From IMG/VR virus record IMGVR_UViG_3300011114_001058, positions 1 through 24,639 of that record: a stretch of 24,639 bases of DNA. One strand, written 5' to 3'. A program made the translations under genes and the position numbers. This stretch comes from a virus. Shown here piece by piece: positions 3,244 to 24,423 of this stretch (position 1 is the first letter of the stretch; the number at the start of each line of letters is the position of its first letter). The notes beneath the pieces are model-generated. The model did no database searches and was not told the DNA's origin. It saw nothing but the letters and a program-made list of their open reading frames with translations.

Positions 3244-4356
3244 ATGGCAACAAGCAATTCGTACGTTTTTGGAATCACTACACAGATAGATGAATTTTTC
3301 AGAGAATCCTTTGAACGCATAGGCGTTAAAGGAAATGAAATCTCTGAACCAATGATTGCTTCAGCTCAAATGTCTGCCAATCTTGCTTTAACAGATTGGA
3401 TGGGAAAAGTTCCTCTTACGTGGATGCGTAAACGTCAGATGATTACCTTGTATCAAGGTCAAATGACATATCAACTTCCCCCACAAATGACGCAGATTAT
3501 TGATGTCATTGCTATTCAACCCCAACGATTAAATACAGGTGGTATAGCTTTATCCTCTACGGTTGCTTCTGGTTCCGCAGCAAATGTTTTTGATCCTAAT
3601 TCTACAGCAGGGTGTACACTTGCTAATCCTAATGGAGATATTGGATACAATTACGGGACAAATACATTAAGCACTAACAATAGCTTTAATGGAAATTCCA
3701 TATTTTATGTAGGCATTCAGCCATTAAATAATAATTCAGTTTATAAACTTGCGGTTCAATATTCTTTTGATGGTGCTAATTGGTTAACCATTAATACACC
3801 TAAACAAACCATTTATAACATGGATCAAATAGGATGGATTGTTATTGAAAATTCTTTAAATGCTCAATATTGGAGAATTTTAGAGACAGGCGGTGCTACT
3901 CTAGCTATCCAACAATTGTATTTTGCTGAACCTATTAATAATGGCCAAGGAGACAGGGCATTAACTGCTCTTTCTTATACCCAATGGATGCAAGTTTCTA
4001 ATAAATTAACGCAGAGTTATCCCTCTGGATATTTTTTTAATTCTCAAGCTAATCCAACAATTACGTTGTGGCCGGTTCCCAATCAAACGTATACAGGTTT
4101 ACTGTATACAGGGTATTTTTACCCTCAAGATGTCACGTATCTTTTTAATGAATTTGATGTTCCAAGACGGTTTGTTGAAGCACTAGTAGCTGAGCTTGCC
4201 TATCGATTAGCTTCAAAATCTATTTTTAATGTTCCATCAGACAAAATTGTTCAATTAAAAGAAGACAAAGTTGAAGCCTTTAATAATGCGGCAATGACAG
4301 ATCAATCAAACTTTATTTTGTCATTCAAACCAGATTTTAGTTATTTGGGTAAATAA
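3244..4356 (+). CDS. P22 gp4-like head-to-tail connector with an inserted discoidin-like domain
   Basis: A 370-residue connector candidate, expected to bind below the portal and start the tail. Residues 1-95 are helical with a WMRKRQMITLYQGQMTYQLP segment. Residues ~234-345 hold the typical end of this group: ITLWPVPNQTYTG, then YFYPQDVTYL, then DVPRRFVEALVAELAYRLA. Residues ~97-233 are an extra beta-rich block ending in AQYWRILETGGATLAIQQLYF. That pattern is typical of discoidin/F5-8C-like sandwiches, which often bind sugars or other proteins. The usual gp4-type protein is shorter, near 160-240 residues, so the insert explains the length. The next gene begins at the base after the stop. The connector call is good; the insert's role is unknown. 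Confidence 0.65.
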   Translation: MATSNSYVFGITTQIDEFFRESFERIGVKGNEISEPMIASAQMSANLALTDWMGKVPLTWMRKRQMITLYQGQMTYQLPPQMTQIIDVIAIQPQRLNTGGIALSSTVASGSAANVFDPNSTAGCTLANPNGDIGYNYGTNTLSTNNSFNGNSIFYVGIQPLNNNSVYKLAVQYSFDGANWLTINTPKQTIYNMDQIGWIVIENSLNAQYWRILETGGATLAIQQLYFAEPINNGQGDRALTALSYTQWMQVSNKLTQSYPSGYFFNSQANPTITLWPVPNQTYTGLLYTGYFYPQDVTYLFNEFDVPRRFVEALVAELAYRLASKSIFNVPSDKIVQLKEDKVEAFNNAAMTDQSNFILSFKPDFSYLGK

Positions 4357-4923
4357 ATGCGTATTGGATCTAAGGGAAAATACACTAGGCAAAACAAACA
4401 AAAACCACGTGGTATTGGAACATGTGATTACAGCGGTTTAATGGTTCGCCATAGTAATATGATTCAACAATACCAATATCGAGGTAATGGACTTGTTTGG
4501 ACAGGTTTTTGGGTAAATCCAAAGTTTGCCGATAAACCTAATCCACAAGATCTTGTTCCTATTATTCGCTTAGATCCAGTTCCACTTAATCATGCTCGCC
4601 CAGATCCAATCGTTTATGACAATACAATTAGCACAATTACCATTGATGTAAGTGGAGGAATCGACATTCTGCTTACTGAACAACAATTTGATAATATGGT
4701 TATTAGATTTATTGGAGTGTTAACAAATAATATTACAGTATTTATTCCCAATACTTTTAATGAATTCTATGCTATTAATTTAGCAACAGGTGGTTTTACT
4801 TTAGCAATGCAAATAGAAGGGAATGCTGCTCCAGGTTTAATTATACCAGCAGCAGATCCGCTTACTAATACAGGACCTTTAGTATCGAATAATTTTATAA
4901 GTTTAAATTTTGTTTATCATTAG
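4357..4923 (+). CDS. Virion protein: degenerate zinc-ribbon-like N-terminus fused to a fibre-type beta module
   Basis: A 188-residue protein whose ATG directly follows the preceding stop. Residues ~20-85 (GTCDYSGLMVRHSNM ... NPKFADKPNPQDLVPI) match the outline of small phage proteins with a Cys-Asp-x-Cys-Gly ... Cys-x-x-Cys ribbon followed by PQD. Here only one of the expected four Cys remains, so metal binding is probably lost. Residues ~92-175 follow a phage fibre module pattern: ITIDVSGGIDILLTEQQ, then FIGVLTNNITVFIP, then INLATGGFTLAMQ. Its place between a connector and the first fibre gene suggests an adaptor joining fibres to the tail stub. This is inferred from domain resemblance and order, not from a sure family match. 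Confidence 0.5.
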   Translation: MRIGSKGKYTRQNKQKPRGIGTCDYSGLMVRHSNMIQQYQYRGNGLVWTGFWVNPKFADKPNPQDLVPIIRLDPVPLNHARPDPIVYDNTISTITIDVSGGIDILLTEQQFDNMVIRFIGVLTNNITVFIPNTFNEFYAINLATGGFTLAMQIEGNAAPGLIIPAADPLTNTGPLVSNNFISLNFVYH

Positions 4924-4935
4924 AGGATACACTTT

Positions 4936-6006
4936 ATGGCAAATGCTTCTGATACTTCTCATTATGTCTTGGTTAGTCCTGACACTACATTGCCCAATTC
5001 TCAAACATTAACGGCGGGTACAGGATTATCTGTTAGTTCTGGTGGTGCAGGTGGACATATTACGGTCGCTGCTGACGGAGCATTAGCAAATTTTGCAAAT
5101 CTTATTGGACCCCAAGGTTTTGTTGTTTATAACCCGTCCAATAAAGTTATAAAAACTGTTGTTTTTCAAAGTGATGGAAGCATTGCAATTAATGATCCTG
5201 GTGGAAATGGTGCGCCACCTACTTTTGGAGTTGTTCCACAAACAACAAATCAATTAATTCAAGCAAGTGGAAATGCAGGATCAAGTGTAGGTAATTATCC
5301 TCAAATTAATTTTTCGGGAACAAATGGTATAAGTTGTTCAGTATCAGCTGATGCAGCTAATAACCGTATTCTTGTAAGTTACAGTGGGTTAAATGCTTCA
5401 TCTCAATGGTCTTTATATCCTGCCATTACAAATGTTAATTTATCTGGATATAAAATTTTTAATTTAGCAGATCCAACTGATGCTCAAGATGCTGTAACAA
5501 AAAATTATGTAGATCTTCATAGTGGTGGAGCTCCTATTGGAGCCTCCTATTTAACTGCATCTGAAAATAGCACGCTTACAAATGAAATTAATCTAGGTGC
5601 TCTTGATTCTGGAATTCTTGTAAGTACAGTAAATTCAGGCGTTGCAACAATTTCTACCTACAATATTGTCCCTGTTACAGCAACTTTACAAACACTTAAT
5701 GCAACAACAACTACATTATTTTCTATTCCTTTGACAACAAATCAATCAGTGACCGTAACCGGTTCAATTATTGGATCAAGTGATGATCATGCAGACACAA
5801 CAGGTGCGTGGTTTACAGCAACAGTTGGAAGATCGGCAACTGATGTTTATATGGTAGGAACGCCATTTTTACTAGTTAATGCATCTTCTTCAACAAATGT
5901 AGTTATTACTGCTGATACTTTAACACAATCTGTATTGTGTCAGGTCACAGGAATTGTTGCTACTACGTATAATTGGTCGGTCAGTTATACATCTCAATTA
6001 ATTTAA
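4936..6006 (+). CDS. Tail fibre, type-A N-terminus with ATTYNW C-terminal domain
   Basis: A 356-residue trimeric-fibre candidate with a GAGG ribosome site. Residues 1-150 form N-terminal module A (MANASDTSHYVLVS, TLPNSQ, GGAGG, ADAANNRI), shared with the fibre at 7724-9424 and probably the virion-attachment part. Residues ~175-195 hold the phage fibre repeat NLADPTDAQDAVTKNYVD. Residues ~200-220 (YLTASENSTLTNEINLG) are a common shaft-to-tip hinge. The last ~105 residues end in GIVATTYNWSVSYT and are homologous to the tip of the next gene (6023-6514), although the two N-termini are unrelated. A receptor-binding role is inferred. First gene of a four-fibre array. Confidence 0.75.
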   Translation: MANASDTSHYVLVSPDTTLPNSQTLTAGTGLSVSSGGAGGHITVAADGALANFANLIGPQGFVVYNPSNKVIKTVVFQSDGSIAINDPGGNGAPPTFGVVPQTTNQLIQASGNAGSSVGNYPQINFSGTNGISCSVSADAANNRILVSYSGLNASSQWSLYPAITNVNLSGYKIFNLADPTDAQDAVTKNYVDLHSGGAPIGASYLTASENSTLTNEINLGALDSGILVSTVNSGVATISTYNIVPVTATLQTLNATTTTLFSIPLTTNQSVTVTGSIIGSSDDHADTTGAWFTATVGRSATDVYMVGTPFLLVNASSSTNVVITADTLTQSVLCQVTGIVATTYNWSVSYTSQLI

Positions 6007-6019
6007 ATTTAGGAGAATT

Positions 6020-6054
6020 TAAATGGCTAATATTAAAAATGCACAAACATTTAG
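6020..6054 (+). repeat. Direct repeat B, copy 1 (fibre gene start)
   Basis: A 35-base stretch spanning the start codon and first codons of the 163-aa fibre. It is identical to 6550-6584 and nearly repeated at 7434-7460. Low divergence compared with flanking sequence suggests recent duplication or gene conversion. Confidence 0.85.
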
Positions 6055-6514
6055 CGGTGCAATTACAACAAGTTCTGATCTTGTAGTTGATGGTGCTTTT
6101 AAAAAAGCAGCTGGCGCAGTTAATGGTTATTTCCTTCAAACTGATGCAATTGGTACTGGTACTTGGGCGCCTGTATCTGGTGCCCCTTCTACTGCTACAG
6201 TACAAACTACTGATGCAACCCCAACTACGCTCTTATCTATATCGTTGGGCGCAAGTAGTGTTTTAACGTTAAATGGAATTGTCGAAGCAGCTGATGCAGC
6301 ATATACAGATGCAACAGGTGGTTCACTTGTCGCTACCGCATTGCGTGCAGCAGGAGCAGCAATTAATGTTGGAGCTCCTTTTGTGGCAGTTTTAGCAACT
6401 TCTACCGGAACATTTAATGTGGCAGTTTCAGGAAACAATTTAGTTGTAACCGTAACAGGTATTGCAGCGACAACATATAATTGGAAAATAACTTATACTG
6501 TTTCAACAAATTAA
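6023..6514 (+). CDS. Short tail fibre, type-B N-terminus with ATTYNW C-terminal domain
   Basis: A 163-residue fibre candidate with an AGGAG ribosome site. Residues 1-12 are module B (MANIKNAQTFSG), identical in the next gene and in the broken copy at 7436. Residues ~40-52 (GYFLQTDAIGTGTWAPV) are the phage fibre motif that often precedes a tip. Residues ~58-163 are homologous to the last ~105 residues of the preceding fibre, including GIAATTYNWKITYT. It therefore carries one neighbour's start and the other neighbour's tip, direct evidence of module exchange or duplication. It is small for a whole fibre and may be a tip or adaptor unit. Confidence 0.7.
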   Translation: MANIKNAQTFSGAITTSSDLVVDGAFKKAAGAVNGYFLQTDAIGTGTWAPVSGAPSTATVQTTDATPTTLLSISLGASSVLTLNGIVEAADAAYTDATGGSLVATALRAAGAAINVGAPFVAVLATSTGTFNVAVSGNNLVVTVTGIAATTYNWKITYTVSTN

Positions 6515-6549
6515 TTTTTTGGGTGTAATCTATTTAACTAAGGTTTATA

Positions 6550-6584
6550 TAAATGGCTAATATTAAAAATGCACAAACATTTAG
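6550..6584 (+). repeat. Direct repeat B, copy 2 (fibre gene start)
   Basis: Identical over 35 bases to 6020-6054. It covers the start of the 264-aa fibre. Similarity drops quickly downstream, so the repeat marks a junction between a shared start and a private body. Confidence 0.85.
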
Positions 6585-7347
6585 TGGTACAGTTACAATA
6601 AGTTCTGATGGGACTGATCTTACGACTATTACCCCTCTATCTATAACTTTTGATGATGGAACAATCTCTTCTATTTCGGTGAATAGCGGAAATCTTACTT
6701 GTCTTGGTAATAATCTAAATTTAAATGCAAATGACAATGTAAGTATTAATGCAACTAATGATGCTATTACTATTACCGCAGATGACAATATTTCATTAAC
6801 AAGTGCCGGTGAAGGTAATATAAATTTAGACGCTCCTAATATTAATAGTTATGGTTGGGCTCTCCCTATATGTCTGAATGTATTTGAAACTTCTTCTTAT
6901 AGTTATACTAATGGTGGGCAGGTATTTGGAGATGTATATCAAATAGCATTTAACTTACCTAATCAATTTTTTAGTAATGTTCCACAATCTGGATATACGG
7001 CGACAAGATGGCAAATAAACTTTGATTTAAACCAATTTAATATGACATATAATTCTGATAAAGGGTACGCAATATATTTTGAATTATGGGACAGTAATTC
7101 AAATGTTTATTCACCATTTCTTTATAATCAATTAACCCCATTTTGTAGGTGGAATAATCCCGCAGGTTTTAGTAATGGAACTTATAGCAGTTTTAGTTCC
7201 GTTAATTGGTGTGATTATGTTGATTTAGGAGGTATGGCAGGAACTTTTGATGGTAATTTAACATTACATTTATTTATTGCAGGAGATAATCCTTTTACAT
7301 CTGATTTTAAATTAAAATTAGGATTTACAAGAATTAACAGAATTTAA
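6553..7347 (+). CDS. Tail fibre, type-B N-terminus with a distinct C-terminal domain
   Basis: A 264-residue fibre candidate. It shares the first 12 residues with the preceding fibre, and its 5' end is identical over 35 bases. Residues ~30-92 are short beta-strand repeats (LNANDNVSINATNDAITITA), the look of a beta-helical or beta-prism shaft. Residues ~95-264 form an aromatic-rich domain (WQINFDLNQFN, YAIYFELWDSNSNVYSPF, LHLFIAGDN, KLKLGFTRI) with no copy elsewhere in the window; I do not recognise its family. A receptor-binding tip is the natural reading. The ribosome site is weak (AAGG about nine bases before the ATG). Confidence 0.65.
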   Translation: MANIKNAQTFSGTVTISSDGTDLTTITPLSITFDDGTISSISVNSGNLTCLGNNLNLNANDNVSINATNDAITITADDNISLTSAGEGNINLDAPNINSYGWALPICLNVFETSSYSYTNGGQVFGDVYQIAFNLPNQFFSNVPQSGYTATRWQINFDLNQFNMTYNSDKGYAIYFELWDSNSNVYSPFLYNQLTPFCRWNNPAGFSNGTYSSFSSVNWCDYVDLGGMAGTFDGNLTLHLFIAGDNPFTSDFKLKLGFTRINRI

Positions 7348-7433
7348 AAATAAAATCATTTGATATATGTTATATTATGCCTCAACCAGTAATAGTTAAA
7401 ATAAATTCTAAAATATACAATATACCCATTTTA

Positions 7434-7460
7434 AAATGGCTAATATTAAAAATGCACAAA
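7434..7460 (+). repeat. Direct repeat B, copy 3 (broken fibre start)
   Basis: 27 bases identical to the first part of repeat B (from 6021). After it the CA present in the other two copies is missing, which shifts the frame and gives a stop two codons later. Confidence 0.8.
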
Positions 7461-7641
7461 TTTAACAAAAAGCACAACAGCTTCAACTATAACTGGGCCC
7501 TAAGGGAACGAACATGTAACCAGCCGCCACTTTGGTTTTATTTGTTCAATGTCGGTACTTCTAGAGGGGATATCTTTAGCTCCTGCCTTAACTGGTACAG
7601 GTTCATTAGATAATGGAATTATTATTATTGAAGGTTATTAA
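7436..7641 (+). pseudogene. Decayed type-B tail fibre gene remnant
   Basis: The copy opens ATG-GCT-AAT with the same eight residues as the two upstream type-B fibres (MANIKNAQ). A two-base deletion against them then leads to a stop after nine codons. Fibre-like fragments follow in other frames: Thr/Ser-rich TKSTTASTITGP near 7460-7500, and APALTGTGSLDNGIIII ending at TAA 7639-7641. At least two further shifts would be needed to join them. No ribosome site is seen. This remnant is the main content of the 376-base gap 7348-7723; the rest (7642-7723) is very AT-rich and holds no gene I can support. Confidence 0.65.
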
Positions 7642-7723
7642 GCATTTATTCTTTAAATAAAAATAAAGACAAAGTAAATAAAACCGTTTATTATTTATAT
7701 ATATAATATATTTATCTATTCTT

Positions 7724-9424
7724 ATGGCCAATGCATCTGACACTTCACCATATTTATTAGTAAGCAATGATTCAACTTTACCAAATTCACAACAACTTGT
7801 TGTAGGATCTGGTTTAATTGCAGAATCTGGTGGGGCAGGGGGAGATTTTACGATATCTCCTGCATTAGGATTGGCATCATTAGCTAATTTAAACACACCC
7901 GGTATATTGTCATTTAATTCTTTTTCTAAAAGTATTACACCAAGAACGTTTGTAAGTAATTCGTCAATTACTATTGCTAATGCTGATGGATTAAATGGCA
8001 CGCCTATTTTTAGTGTCGTCCCCAATACGACGCAACAATTGATTACGGCGAGTGCTAATGGTGGATCTAATGTAGGAAATTATCCGGAATTACATTTTAC
8101 CGGTAGTGGTAGTGCAACATGTTCTGCAGTAGCTGATGCAGCAAACAATCGCATTGTAATAAATTATAATGCACCTTCTGGTGCAGGTACAGGATCGGTA
8201 ACTTCAGTTGGTGCCACATCACCGAATTCAACATTAACTATTGGCGGAACTAATCCAATAACTACCGTTGGTACTTTTACCTTTGATTTACCAACAACCG
8301 GTGTTGTTGCAGGTGCCTATACAAGTGCTAATATAAATGTAGATGCTTATGGTCGATTAACTTTTGCTGCCAATGGGTCAGGTGGATCAGGCGGTGGTGG
8401 AACAGTTAGTTCAGTTCAATTAGCATCTCCCAGTACCAGTTTAATTATTGGTGGAACTAATCCTATTACTACTGGTGGTATAATCAATGTAGATATGCCT
8501 GCCATAATATCATCTGGAAGTTATACAAATGCAAATGTATCAGTAGATACTTATGGTCGTGTAACTGCCATTACTAACGGTATTGCAGGTGGAACAGGCA
8601 CGGTAACGTCTGTTGGAGTAACTTCTAGTAATGGAACTTTAACAGTTACAGGAAGCCCTGTAACGACGTCAGGAACAATAAATGTAGCGTTGCCTACTAC
8701 ATCGGTTACCGCTGCTACTTATACAAATTCTACAATCACTGTAGATAGTTTTGGGCGCATAACTTCTGCTGCTAACGGAAGTTCTATTGGAACGATTGTT
8801 GGAGCGACAAATCAAATTAGTGCTAATACAGTTTCTGGTACGACAACATTAAGCATTCCATCAGATTTCAGAATTCCTGGGACTTTAACGTTTCCTAATA
8901 CTACTCAATCATCTAATTCTTCCAATCTTTCTTTTTATACAAATTCTACAACAACCTATCCGGTAGCATTTGCTTATTCAGTACCTCAAATTTCTTACAA
9001 TTTAGATATTGCTTATGAACGTATTGGAAATTTAATTTTTGTTTCAGTTAATGCTAATGGAACTTATTTAACATGTGATGTATCAGGTAGTACCTCTTTA
9101 TATGGAATTAATAGTTCTAGTGTTCCATCTTCTTATATACCTACAAATATAGGAGGGGTAAAAATTGGTAAAGGAACTATTATTGTTTCCTCTTTATCTA
9201 CTTATTTATATACACTTTCTTGCAGCGTTAATATATATACTGATGGAACTCAAAATGGGACTACTTTTTCTTTTGATTTAGATCCTATAATTAATTTTGA
9301 TGGAATCACTTATACATCTTATCAACCTACGTTTGTCGCAGGGTATGTATACGTGTTTGGATCAATAACTAGTGGATATACTTATCCTGGTATAAATTTC
9401 TTTTATTCAAGAGTTGCTCCATAA
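7724..9424 (+). CDS. Long tail fibre, type-A N-terminus with three shaft repeats
   Basis: A 566-residue fibre candidate, the longest of the array. Residues 1-150 are module A, aligned throughout with the fibre at 4936. Three tandem shaft repeats follow at ~156-219, 226-288 and 291-353. Each runs GTVTSVG, a TLTIGGTNPITT-like strand, then YTNANxxVDxYGRxT and NG, a well-known phage fibre shaft pattern. A Gly-rich hinge lies at ~218-226. Residues ~405-566 form a tip domain whose end (INFDGITYTSYQPTF ... YVYVFG) is related to the remnant at 10322-10507. No clear ribosome site precedes the ATG; the leader is almost pure A/T. A receptor-binding function is inferred. Confidence 0.75.
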   Translation: MANASDTSPYLLVSNDSTLPNSQQLVVGSGLIAESGGAGGDFTISPALGLASLANLNTPGILSFNSFSKSITPRTFVSNSSITIANADGLNGTPIFSVVPNTTQQLITASANGGSNVGNYPELHFTGSGSATCSAVADAANNRIVINYNAPSGAGTGSVTSVGATSPNSTLTIGGTNPITTVGTFTFDLPTTGVVAGAYTSANINVDAYGRLTFAANGSGGSGGGGTVSSVQLASPSTSLIIGGTNPITTGGIINVDMPAIISSGSYTNANVSVDTYGRVTAITNGIAGGTGTVTSVGVTSSNGTLTVTGSPVTTSGTINVALPTTSVTAATYTNSTITVDSFGRITSAANGSSIGTIVGATNQISANTVSGTTTLSIPSDFRIPGTLTFPNTTQSSNSSNLSFYTNSTTTYPVAFAYSVPQISYNLDIAYERIGNLIFVSVNANGTYLTCDVSGSTSLYGINSSSVPSSYIPTNIGGVKIGKGTIIVSSLSTYLYTLSCSVNIYTDGTQNGTTFSFDLDPIINFDGITYTSYQPTFVAGYVYVFGSITSGYTYPGINFFYSRVAP

Positions 9425-9425
9425 A

Positions 9426-9473
9426 ATGGCTAATGCACCAGATACCCCATCTTATCTATTAGGGGTTAATTGA
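9426..9473 (+). pseudogene. Truncated start of a type-A tail fibre gene
   Basis: One base after the preceding stop, an ATG opens MANAPDTPSYLLGVN and then a TGA. It matches the first residues of the type-A fibres (MANASDTSPYLLVSN). The reading frame ends where the toxin-antitoxin cassette begins. It looks like the 5' stub of a third type-A fibre whose far end survives at 10322-10507. The 9474-9573 stretch beyond it holds no gene I can support. Confidence 0.7.
9459..9467 (+). repeat. 9-bp direct repeat, left edge of toxin-antitoxin insertion
   Basis: TTAGGGGTT lies at the end of the fibre 5' stub and recurs at 10323-10331, where the fibre 3' remnant begins. It may be a target duplication or a short homology used at the join. 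Nine bases could also match by chance. Confidence 0.4.
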
Positions 9474-9573
9474 GCAGTCCCCCGAAATGTTCCCTTCGAA
9501 TTAAACATAATAAAAAACACTACGTTTATTTACAACTCTCTCTGCCCTTAAGGAAAAATTAGTATCTATATTT

Positions 9574-9960
9574 TTATCGGATAAGCTCAATTTCAAGATT
9601 GTCTAATTGAAGTTTTTGCCATACTTTGTCAGCCGTATAAACAGGAAGGCCCATCTTTATGCCTAAAGAGATACATGCGCGGTCACCTAAAGATAAGCCA
9701 TGCTTTTTCGTGTGTTTTCTAAGTTCAGCCGTTTTGAAAGCTTGTTCCTCATCAAAAGGCACAATATCAGAAATAAGAGGCAATAGGCACTCTTGCACTT
9801 CCTGGGCCGTCATTTCTGATTCCAACAAAATACTGGCTGTTTCAGAAACATTGATGCTAGACATGACAATTTGCCCCAACAAGGGCTCAACTTTATCAGC
9901 GCCAGGCTCATTTTTGAGAAGGGCAAGCAGCGCAGATGCATCAAGAATAAATTTACTCAT
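9574..9960 (-). CDS. vapC: VapC-type PIN-domain toxin ribonuclease
   Basis: A 128-residue PIN-domain protein; VapC toxins are metal-dependent ribonucleases that cut tRNA or rRNA and stop growth when unopposed. The acidic active-site residues expected of the family are visible: D7 in FILDASALL, E40 in SINVSE, D93 in LSLGDRAC and D111 in VYTAD. Length is normal, so it is probably intact. Its ATG overlaps the end of the antitoxin gene by 8 bases, the usual antitoxin-first order with coupled translation. It lies on the minus strand within a plus-strand structural operon and is visibly richer in G+C (40-47% in lines I counted) than the fibre genes (about 28% in one line), which points to separate acquisition. 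Its target is unknown. Confidence 0.88.
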   Translation of the reverse strand: MSKFILDASALLALLKNEPGADKVEPLLGQIVMSSINVSETASILLESEMTAQEVQECLLPLISDIVPFDEEQAFKTAELRKHTKKHGLSLGDRACISLGIKMGLPVYTADKVWQKLQLDNLEIELIR

Positions 9961-10198
9961 GTTTGGCCTCTTCTTTGCGTTCAGCTAGCAATTTATCAAC
10001 TAGGCTTTCATTAGCAGAATGGTACTGATTGACTAGTTGTCGTGACTTTTCTAAAAGACATCTCAAAGAAGAAATGACAAGCGTGTCATTTTTCATATCT
10101 AAGACAACTTCTTCGCCATCCTTGAATTGAAGCATTTTACGATAAATTGAAGGTATAGAAATTTTTCCACCTTTTGATATTTTTGCTCTCAATAACAT
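9953..10198 (-). CDS. vapB: AbrB/MazE-fold antitoxin (VapB partner)
   Basis: An 81-residue antitoxin with an N-terminal swapped-hairpin DNA-binding domain: AKISKGGKISIPSIYRKML, then FKDGEEVVLDMKNDTLVIS. A charged helical C-terminal half (~45-81) should wrap and block the toxin. I chose the ATG at 10198 rather than upstream in-frame starts because an AAAGGA ribosome site lies about 10 bases before it, the family domain begins there, and a longer start would read through the promoter. Such antitoxins bind their own promoter, alone or with the toxin; a matching inverted repeat lies just upstream. Confidence 0.85.
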   Translation of the reverse strand: MLLRAKISKGGKISIPSIYRKMLQFKDGEEVVLDMKNDTLVISSLRCLLEKSRQLVNQYHSANESLVDKLLAERKEEAKHE

Positions 10199-10215
10199 TA
10201 GATATCGTCCTTTTT

Positions 10216-10243
10216 TGACAATTGTTACCATTGTCATTATAGC
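10216..10243 (-). promoter_or_regulatory. vapBC promoter with overlapping operator
   Basis: On the minus strand an extended -10 box (TGCTATAAT, hexamer at 10241-10236) runs directly into a perfect inverted repeat. Its 7-base arms are TGACAAT/ATTGTCA at 10216-10222 and 10230-10236, with a 7-base spacer. Transcription would start inside this repeat, so an AbrB-fold antitoxin bound there should block initiation. No good -35 box is visible, as is common with extended -10 promoters. Confidence 0.65.
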
Positions 10244-10321
10244 ATCAAAATGATTAATAGTAAGTAAATATCTTTTAATCACCATTTTAGGAAAAAGCTC
10301 TCGTAATCTTAAAAAGATCCA

Positions 10322-10507
10322 TTTAGGGGTTCCAGAAACACATGTTTTTGGAATGGTATTAGTAATACGTTTGTTTTAACAAAACTCACCACTTTTAACG
10401 GTACAACTTATACATCTACGTCACCAAAATATGTAAATACCAATATTTATAATTTTGGTCAAAATGGAAATTCTTTTGGTTTAGTCTTTTCTTACCCTTT
10501 CGTATAA
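10322..10507 (+). pseudogene. 3' remnant of a type-A tail fibre gene
   Basis: An open frame without a start codon ends at TAA 10505-10507. It reads NTFVLTKLTTFNGTTYTS ... YVNTNIYNFG and aligns with the last ~50 residues of the 566-aa fibre (INFDGITYTS ... VAGYVYVFG). The start stub of a similar gene lies on the other side of the toxin-antitoxin pair. The two remnants are one base out of frame if joined at the 9-bp repeat, so sequence was probably lost or has decayed since. Confidence 0.65.
10323..10331 (+). repeat. 9-bp direct repeat, right edge of toxin-antitoxin insertion
   Basis: Second copy of TTAGGGGTT (first at 9459-9467). Together the copies bracket the vapBC cassette and its promoter. 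Confidence 0.4.
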
Positions 10508-10573: not shown

Positions 10574-11203
10574 ATGGCATTTGTCCTAACTTATGAAACA
10601 TTAACGACAACCATTAAGGATTATGTAGAACGTCAAGATGCACGTTTTATTGATACTATTCCTGTATTTTTGGTTTTAGGACAACAACGTGTTTGTAAAG
10701 ACTTAAAGATCTTAAACATTAAGAATTTTGTAACTGATTCATTAACTACAAATGTTCAATTAGTTGCCAAACCAGGAGATTGGATAACAAGTAACTATTT
10801 TAATATTTTACAACCTAACGGTGAAAAACTTATTCTTAAATTTAGATCTAACGAGTATTGCGATACTTATTGGCCCAATCCAACAGATGTCGGCGTACCA
10901 AAATATTTTGCAGATTATACCTTTAATACCACAAAAATAGTTCCTACGCCTGATCAAGATTATCCTTACGAATTTGGATATTATGCATTGCCACCTCTTT
11001 TAGACGAAACAAATGGCACAAACATTTTAACAAGTACTATTCCTCAAGTATTGATTTATGCCTGTCTTTTAGAAACAGCATCTTATTTAAAGGATGATGA
11101 ACGTTTGCCTGTATGGACAGATTATTATTCCAAAGCAAAAGATGCCGTAAATGCAGAAGATTTAAGTCGTATTTATGTAGGATTTACCAGTAATAACCAT
11201 TAA
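10574..11203 (+). CDS. SU10/gp6-type head-tail adaptor protein
   Basis: A 209-residue connector of the adaptor type that forms a ring under the portal. The N-terminus is helical (LTTTIKDYVERQDARFIDTIPVFLVLGQQRV). The middle is beta-rich with a KPGDWIT turn, as in related adaptors. The C-terminus is helical, ending in LIYACLLETASYLKDDERLPVW, then YYSKAKDAVNAEDLSRIY, the hallmark end of this group. Length is normal. It is the second connector in the window, separated from the gp4-like one by the whole fibre array and the toxin-antitoxin cassette. No ribosome site is visible and the leader is A/T only. Confidence 0.72.
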   Translation: MAFVLTYETLTTTIKDYVERQDARFIDTIPVFLVLGQQRVCKDLKILNIKNFVTDSLTTNVQLVAKPGDWITSNYFNILQPNGEKLILKFRSNEYCDTYWPNPTDVGVPKYFADYTFNTTKIVPTPDQDYPYEFGYYALPPLLDETNGTNILTSTIPQVLIYACLLETASYLKDDERLPVWTDYYSKAKDAVNAEDLSRIYVGFTSNNH

Positions 11204-15589: not shown

Positions 15590-16762
15590 ATGTACCCTAA
15601 TCTAAATCCAAACCCAATGCAGGGAATGAATTTTCCTACGAGACAACTTGTTAATTCTGCTCCGACACAATCACCATTTCAGGCAAATATGTCGGCACAA
15701 AGTCAACCTAATCCACAACAACCTCAACAAAATTTTAAACGGGGAGGTCGGGTTAAAAATAGTTATGTAGCTGCTCATTTTTCTAAAAAAGAATTAGATG
15801 CATTAGATCATTTACAGGGTGGATCTGAACGTCATAATAAAACGGGGATTCGATCATACAAAGGATTAGAAGCGCTTTTAAAAAATCCTCATTTGCTAAA
15901 ACTTATTCATGAACATAGTGCAAGCCATCATGCAGAAGGTGGTTCTATACAAGGAATGGCACACAATGGACGTCATGGCGATACAGAAATGGCTTTTATT
16001 GGACCTCATACACGTCAATTACTTGATAAATTAGCAGGTCATAAAACACGTAATCCTTATGACGGTCATCCTGAATATTTTTCTTTAGGAAATATGTTAG
16101 GTGGTATTGGCAAAACTATTATGCGTGTTCCAAAAGGGATTATTAAAGGCGTTTCTGGAATTGGAAAAACTTTTGGGAATTTAAGTCCTACGGCACGTGG
16201 AATGTTAGGCACAGCAGCATCTGCTCTTGCATTACCAATAATGGGACCAGCGGCTGCAGCACTTCCTTTTATTGCTAAGGCTGCGCCTGGTTTTTTAAAA
16301 CATATAAAAGGTTTTGCTGGAAAAGCAAAAAGTTCTGTAAATGATTTGAAAAATCAGGCTAATAGCATGTTGGGACAAGCACAAAATGAAGCTCAAAATA
16401 TGTATGGCCGTGCACAAGAGTATGGACAAAATATGTACGGAAAAGCTCAAGACAAAGCTCAGGGTATGTATGATCAAGCACAAAATGAAGCTCAAAATAT
16501 GTATGGCCGTGCACAAGAGTATGGACAAAATATGTATAACCAAGGTCAACAAGCTTATGGAAATGCACGTAAACAAGCAAAAGGATACGGCCAAGATATA
16601 TACAATCAAGCTCAAGGAATGGGTAATCAGTATGCACACCAAGGGCGTCAAATGTATAACCAAGGACGTGATCAAATGAATCAAATGGGTCAACAAGCAA
16701 AGGAAATGTATAACCAATATCAACAACAACCTTCTTACCAACCTTATTCTTACTATCAATAA
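15590..16762 (+). CDS. Candidate internal/ejection protein with 11-residue amphipathic repeat tail
   Basis: A 390-residue protein, first of four large genes that probably encode internal virion proteins. Residues 1-50 are Pro/Gln-rich. Two related motifs follow at ~58-93 (HFSKKELDALDHLQGG ... TGIRSYKGL) and ~130-166 (GDTEMAFIGPHTRQLLDKLAG ... YFSLGNML). A hydrophobic Ala/Gly/Pro stretch at ~203-236 could enter a membrane. Residues ~264-390 form a run of 11-residue units of the kind AQNEAQNMYGR / AQEYGQNMYGK, likely long amphipathic helices like those in LEA proteins, but rich in Gln, Asn and Tyr. The ribosome site is GGAG eight bases before the ATG. A role in forming a conduit or coating DNA during ejection is inferred. 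Confidence 0.6.
   Translation: MYPNLNPNPMQGMNFPTRQLVNSAPTQSPFQANMSAQSQPNPQQPQQNFKRGGRVKNSYVAAHFSKKELDALDHLQGGSERHNKTGIRSYKGLEALLKNPHLLKLIHEHSASHHAEGGSIQGMAHNGRHGDTEMAFIGPHTRQLLDKLAGHKTRNPYDGHPEYFSLGNMLGGIGKTIMRVPKGIIKGVSGIGKTFGNLSPTARGMLGTAASALALPIMGPAAAALPFIAKAAPGFLKHIKGFAGKAKSSVNDLKNQANSMLGQAQNEAQNMYGRAQEYGQNMYGKAQDKAQGMYDQAQNEAQNMYGRAQEYGQNMYNQGQQAYGNARKQAKGYGQDIYNQAQGMGNQYAHQGRQMYNQGRDQMNQMGQQAKEMYNQYQQQPSYQPYSYYQ
16376..16536 (+). repeat. 62-bp perfect direct repeat with 99-bp period
   Basis: Bases 16376-16437 recur exactly at 16475-16536, 99 bases (33 residues, three 11-mer units) apart. The copies encode QAQNEAQNMYGRAQEYGQNM twice. Perfect identity in a coding repeat suggests a recent duplication and possible length variation by slippage or recombination. 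Confidence 0.9.
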
Positions 16763-23787: not shown

Positions 23788-24423
23788 TTATGTATAACTT
23801 TTGAGTGTGTCAAGTGTTTGCTCATTGTTATTCCGTTTAATTATCCCCACAACAGTTCCAGGTGATATTTTAAGGTTTTTAGCAATTTTTCTGATGGTAT
23901 CGCCATTTTCTCTAGCTTTTAATACAAGTTTTTTTACTTTATCAGAAGTAGGACGAAATCCTGTTTTTCTACCAAGGATCATCCCTTTAGATTTAGCTAA
24001 TGCAATACCGGACATAATACGTTCTTGAATTAAATCACGTTCGAATTCTGCAATGGATGCAAAAACAGACGCAATCATTTTTCCATGAGCTGTACATAAA
24101 TCATATTGCATTCCATTTAGAGCAAGTAGCGAGACATTATAAGATTGAAGAAGTTGTAAAGTTGTTACGAGATCAATAGTACTTCTTCCCCATCTACTAA
24201 GTTCGGTTACCAAAATGCTATCTATATATCTTTGTTTTGCTAACTCAATAACTTGTTTACGAATGGCTCGACCATTTTTGGCGCCAGAAGCATTCTCTTT
24301 ATATATACCAATTATTTCGTAACCTAATCTTTCACTAAAAGCGATCAAGTCTTTTTCTTGACGCTCACATGATTGATCTTTGGTTGAAACACGACAGTAA
24401 ATAGCGACCTTTTTTTGTGTCAA
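23788..24423 (-). CDS. Small serine recombinase (resolvase/invertase family)
   Basis: A 211-residue serine recombinase, which cuts and rejoins DNA at paired sites through a Ser-DNA link. The N-terminal catalytic domain has YCRVSTKDQS with nucleophile S13 and R11. Then come LVTELSRWGRSTIDL with the conserved arginines, and IAEFERDLIQERI leading into the long E-helix. The C-terminal ~50 residues form a helix-turn-helix (TIRKIAKNLKISPGTVVGII). Length matches small resolvases/invertases, not the large integrases. The start is TTG, fixed by a perfect AGGAGG five bases upstream. It faces the late operon tail-to-tail. It could resolve multimers of a plasmid-like prophage, invert a segment, or belong to a mobile element. 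No paired crossover sites are proven here. Confidence 0.88.
   Translation of the reverse strand: MTQKKVAIYCRVSTKDQSCERQEKDLIAFSERLGYEIIGIYKENASGAKNGRAIRKQVIELAKQRYIDSILVTELSRWGRSTIDLVTTLQLLQSYNVSLLALNGMQYDLCTAHGKMIASVFASIAEFERDLIQERIMSGIALAKSKGMILGRKTGFRPTSDKVKKLVLKARENGDTIRKIAKNLKISPGTVVGIIKRNNNEQTLDTLKSYT

Follow-up and report, generated by a model that had tools for sequence, protein, structure and literature searches.

Tail-fibre segments in which a constant start can be joined to alternative tips by inversion are known from phages Mu, P1 and p15B. Receptor-binding genes are also found grouped in clusters, as in the Kuttervirus/Ackermannviridae tailspike cluster, where several of them have conserved N-terminal regions, one receptor-binding module can occur on different spikes and a conserved motif has been proposed as a recombination site (PMC8432352, PMC11721090). 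In lytic coliphages, 44–95 nt of conserved DNA before the exchanged receptor-binding domain and a conserved region after it have been proposed as recombination hotspots (PMC10408124). Tip swapping behind conserved N-termini is already known from such clusters (PMC8432352, PMC10408124), and the array described here works like those; here the exchange takes place in fibre proteins without a convincing family match and without a match among the cultured phages searched. As in Kuttervirus, the fibre genes stand in a row, have conserved starts, carry varied tips in relatives and display conserved sequence at the crossovers. However, the Kuttervirus proteins are beta-helical myovirus tailspikes assembled in a branched complex, whereas here the virion genes are podovirus-like and the fibre proteins show no convincing family match. 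The position of the joint also differs, since the B joint of the array lies at the start codon end of the gene and that of Kuttervirus at the end of the anchor domain. The coliphage motifs were inferred across genera (PMC10408124), whereas the joints of the array could be read directly between near-identical phages.

The window, i.e. the whole stretch of DNA analysed, is a 24.6-kb IMG/VR virus record (IMGVR_UViG_3300011114_001058, positions 1–24,639). It includes a portion of the virion-gene block of a tailed phage, whose adaptors are of the SU10 type (Pfam), and the phage from which the array originates is uncultured and podovirus-like. According to virion genes, its nearest cultured relatives were the Caulobacter phages GB2A, RW, RLK and KcrB, with 31–37% identity (37% for the adaptor and 31% for a 530-aa protein). 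At the position equivalent to the array, however, GB2A carries genes for a regulator and an endolysin as well as two small genes. Two SU10-type adaptor matches flanked the array (3244–4356 and 10574–11203), the first of these genes having an additional weak F5/8 type C match. The left-flank protein had no match in bacterial genomes, and scans for consensus promoters and terminators remained at or below chance level. Further downstream, a 390-aa protein showed at 16386–16679 a repeated Q- and Y-rich stretch, whose copy arrangement was unlike that of the sister phage L007.

Between the 188-aa gene and the adaptor gene, six fibre-like genes were found, four of them intact and two reduced to relics; each has a start, and they were named in order A1, B1, B2, relic B3, A2 and relic A3 (Table 1). 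The original prediction, made on this DNA from its letters alone, had described six fibre starts using two N-terminal modules, and all six were recovered where it had placed them. Type A starts read MANASDTS at 4936 and 7724 and MANAPDTPSYLL at 9426, with a stop soon after; type B starts read MANIKNAQTFSG at 6023 and 6553 and MANIKNAQ at 7436, followed by a stop. Module A extended over approximately residues 1–156 (51% identity between A1 and A2, E 2e-38), whereas the B start was far shorter, covering ~19 residues or 60 bp. Regarding the tips, family T1 (ending in GIxATTYNW) was common to A1 and B1, T2 was found in B2, T3 in A2 and relic A3, and T5 in relic B3, while T4 and T6 were found in relatives only. 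Tip T2 was seen behind both MANIKNAQ and MSVIKNNQ starts. The occurrence of one tip behind a type A (4936) and a type B (6023) start, another feature of the original prediction, was borne out by the 38–41% identity of the A1 and B1 tips (37.7% in a 130-aa match with E 3e-21, and 41% when the tips were aligned).

In an unconstrained tree of T1 tips, the A1 tip of the window grouped with B tips, which is suggestive of a movement of T1 between A and B starts; it is left as suggestive because a tree keeping all A1 tips together, i.e. splitting A1 from B1, was not rejected (AU p 0.18). The module A tree did not discriminate as to an exchange of starts between A1 and A2 (p 0.45). A tblastn search of A2, B1 and B2 against 50,697 cultured phage records gave no match, and structure models of A2 and B2 had mean pLDDT values of 31 and 46, respectively, a quality too low to rely on. 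The locus is probably a receptor-binding protein array: judging from what is known of such families, each fibre gene would probably give rise to a trimeric fibre, docking on the virion by its start and contacting the host receptor by its tip.

Both relics retained recognisable tips. The end of relic B3 corresponded to a fifth tip, T5 (LTGTGSLDNGIIIIEGY), identical at 14 of 17 residues (82%) to an intact gene in L022; this tip had been overlooked at first. In relic A3, the stretch 10352–10495 was 35–39% identical to the A2 tip over 36–51 aa (E ~3e-6 for the 1.1-kb region searched), in agreement with the earlier proposal that the tip of the 566-aa fibre is related to a remnant near 10322.

Table 1. 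Coordinates of the fibre array and associated features in the window
Feature	Position	Strand	Evidence or remark
Conserved 188-aa gene, left flank of array	4357..4923	+	60–99% identical in relatives
Fibre gene A1: module A start, tip T1 (GIxATTYNW)	4936..6006	+	A1–T1 pairing constant within each close group
B-start repeat, copy 1	6018..6079	+	
Fibre gene B1: B start, tip T1	6023..6514	+	Sequence and tip alignment
B-start repeat, copy 2	6548..6609	+	58/59 identical to L005 B2 start
Fibre gene B2: B start, tip T2	6553..7347	+	Tip T4 in same slot of sister phage L007
Left junction of window/L007 tip exchange (B2 codon 36)	6658	.	Comparison with L007
Relic B3: B start, then broken gene ending in T5	7436..7641	+	Last 17 codons match L022 gene
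End of T5 and A2 leader: common right junction of tip exchanges	7628..7723	+	
Fibre gene A2: module A start, repeat stem, tip T3 (~8879–9424)	7724..9424	+	
Relic A3, start piece	9426..9470	+	
VapC-like PIN toxin gene, inside relic A3	9574..9960	-	Pfam PIN E 5.5e-14
AbrB/MazE-like antitoxin gene	9953..10285	-	Weak, below curated cut-offs
Relic A3, tip piece (T3)	10352..10507	+	
SU10-type adaptor gene, right flank of array	10574..11203	+	Pfam SU10_adaptor E 1.2e-19

Scans of viral contigs provided relatives with a whole or partial array (L007/L004, L003, L005, L006, L012/L022, L013, L014 and L015/L023), and three tip exchanges were legible at base level among these related metagenome phages. In the first, the window and L007 were 98.9% identical until codon 36 of B2, from which point the window continued with T2 and L007 with T4; both were collinear again from ~7628, in the final codons of the T5 relic and just before A2. 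In the second, L023 and L022, whose flanks were 94–96% identical, had only ~35 bp of the B-type start in common, which was followed in L022 by T1 and then a separate T5 gene, and in L023 by T2. These two rejoined at the T5 stop codon, ~10 bp or less from the joint observed between the window and L007. The L023 arrangement recurred in L013 and L014, which came from other samples (L013 ends inside the gene). In the third, the A2 stem was common to L023 and L022, the tip was T3 or T6, respectively, and collinearity resumed at the adaptor ATG.

The exchanges and their joints were thus read directly from comparison, and the result of the check on relatives that had been proposed with the original prediction was clear: in near relatives, one and the same start is followed by different tips (window/L007 and L023/L022). 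Breakpoints had been expected near the B start and in codons 1–150 of module A. Two independent left breakpoints were found at the former location, lying ~35 and ~106 bp from the start of the gene, and none at the latter, the A-type swap lying instead after the A2 stem. As near-identical sister phages had different tips behind the same starts, it can be concluded that probable receptor-binding tips are exchanged at this locus through recombination. All compared sequences were metagenomic contigs, and a repeated start might lead to chimeras during assembly. Three observations argue against this: the left joint between the window and L007 was situated ~50 bp past the repeat, the right joints were outside repeats, and one arrangement recurred in separate contigs. 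A search for a donor of T4 returned the same contig only among viral contigs and none among cultured phages. T4 and T6 were each found in one contig only, without counterpart in any other array seen and with no donor detected for either, so that import from other phages is at least as important as reshuffling of a phage's own copies.

The distribution of tips among relatives showed that the slots of the array did not behave alike. In every array-bearing relative A1 came first, and phages of one close group all had the same tip on it. The window, L007 and L005 agreed in the order A-B-B-A; other orders were A-B-(B-like)-A in L022 and A-B-A in L023 and L014, and L006 had a single A-type fibre with YadA-like repeats. 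Since A1 was never swapped and the slot order was kept, these data point to a slot-wise exchange of cassettes and not to free shuffling or a programmed switch. The interchangeable starts and tips of the original prediction have to be qualified accordingly: tips do differ behind the same start, but they are not freely interchangeable, as the A1 tip and the A-B-B-A order were kept. On the basis of these alignments, the array can be regarded as a set of slots, some constant and others open to replacement. In the more distant L017, L018 and L019, a 268-aa gene with a module A-like start was found at the array position, followed by long-repeat genes and a 228-aa gene, i.e. the same locus with another composition.

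Conserved sequence was present at the crossovers, with the B start on the left and the A2 leader together with the T5 end on the right. Within the window, the stretch common to B1 and B2 extended over 77 bp at 86% identity, and that with relic B3 over 30 bp at 97%. Comparison of the B2 starts of the window and L005 revealed 58 identical positions out of 59 from the ATG to codon 19, against ~65% identity for aligned backbone codons, and all 17 comparable codons were the same, against 51% in the backbone. B starts also provided the first, second and fourth longest exact matches between these two sequences. Upstream of the B2 ATG, however, L005 was like its own clade (L022) and unlike the window, which suggests import or homogenisation of the B2 start. 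Under an assumption of independence, the probability of this identity was ~1e-5, uncorrected for the number of places examined, and the best backbone stretches reached 53 identical bases out of 60, so that the identity counts as a supporting and not as a decisive argument. The B start had no match in bacterial genomes.

Taken together, we consider it quite probable that, at the population level, the tips of this receptor-binding protein array are exchanged as cassettes via recombination between co-infecting phages. These phages would recombine through short conserved stretches bracketing the tips, one crossover occurring in conserved DNA within the first 35–106 bp of a B gene, or where the A2 stem ends, and the other in the conserved A2 leader or at the adaptor gene. 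Phage recombinases of the Red beta type are reported to need only ~30 bp (PMC3945230), and a start of 35–60 bp would therefore be enough in principle; among the genes of the window, none was recognised as coding for a recombinase that acts on short homologies. Which enzyme acts, which phages donate tips and how host binding or host range is affected are matters of inference.

Another possible explanation is a reshuffling within one genome, in which B starts recombine mutually and delete or fuse genes, thereby producing new pairings. The window contains three direct copies of the B start, and L023 has a gene composed of the first B-slot start and a T2-type tip, as expected from a deletion between adjacent B genes; recombination among direct B starts in one genome may well account for this particular fusion. 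As an explanation for the locus it is nevertheless unlikely, because the tips T4 (L007) and T6 (L022) were without match in the other arrays seen, which indicates import, and because the B2 start was common to the window and L005, i.e. across diverged phages. It is also conceivable, although very unlikely, that the ~60-bp B start represents a dedicated recombination site, conserved as DNA, at which a phage enzyme, possibly the serine recombinase encoded in the window, loads new tips into the B slots.

This serine recombinase, a member of the invertase/resolvase family overlooked in the original prediction, is encoded on the minus strand (23788–24423). It matched PHROG DNA invertase (E 1e-44) and Resolvase (E 2e-35), and scored 82.6 bits against the nearest invertase model, for which the cut-off is 272 bits. 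Homologues were found in the L003 contig (99% identity) and the L006 contig (32%). A start shared by alternative tips and a serine recombinase in the same genome are features reminiscent of Mu, P1 and p15B, and the encoded enzyme might accordingly perform a programmed switching of the kind known from invertible tail-fibre segments in Mu or P1. However, its gene is 13 kb away from the array and its score is far below the cut-off of the nearest invertase model, and most related records showed no homologue, although these are fragments. Unlike the Mu, P1 and p15B systems, the array has no inverted segment and no recombination sites were found in it; the fibre genes all have the same direction, repeated sequences are in direct orientation, and none of the tips is flanked by a convincing inverted pair. 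Given that convincing inverted sites and oppositely oriented genes were lacking, switching by the serine recombinase is unsupported and must be considered highly improbable. An old gene duplication followed by divergence and decay only, without any exchange, would be compatible with the A-B-B-A order conserved in the window, L007 and L005, but, assembly artefacts at the junctions apart, it is hardly tenable since whole tips differ, with sharp joints, between near-identical phages.

Besides exchange of whole tips, amino-acid changes concentrated in the A2 tip represent a second layer of variation. Between the window and L007, this tip displayed 34.5 nonsynonymous and 3.5 synonymous differences (pN/pS 3.0), against one difference in the A2 stem (codons 1–385; 0 nonsynonymous to 1 synonymous, pN/pS 0). 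The excess had a Fisher p of 5e-5 against pooled backbone genes and a p of 0.04 against neutrality alone. It fits diversifying selection, and it could also have been produced by the import of part of a tip from a related allele. A 640-aa repeated-domain protein (362–2284) had 22 nonsynonymous to 2 synonymous differences in the same comparison (pN/pS 3.5) and may likewise be exposed on the surface and subject to diversifying selection. Variation of the A2 tip by a diversity-generating retroelement can practically be dismissed: differences between the window and L007 tips indeed included very few synonymous ones and fell mainly on the first two codon positions, but they were spread over ~500 bp and affected third positions too, 14 of 38 were without A on either side, no clear bias towards adenine-specific variation was observed between these two phages, and no RVT_1 reverse transcriptase was detected in 12 related records (fragments), control genomes being positive in the same search. 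The absence of RVT_1 matches in these 12 records supports the recombination without retroelement that had been postulated originally.

Fibre genes, once discarded, would decay to relics, one of which would then have acquired cargo genes. Relic A3 was interrupted by a VapBC-like pair on the minus strand (9574–10285), which the original prediction had overlooked, and the sister phages L003 and L007 had relic A3 without this pair. In L007, a gene for an XRE-type regulator adjoins the relic (L007 9890–10527). The decayed third A gene appears as a landing place for cargo (window 9463–10351), VapBC-like in one case and XRE-type in the other.

In a multi-fibre array, a constant slot (A1) could be told apart from changeable ones (the B slots and the A2 tip), and cargo genes, for instance a toxin-antitoxin pair, can settle in a discarded fibre gene. 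Moreover, tip exchange was caught in uncultured phages with its joints visible at base level.
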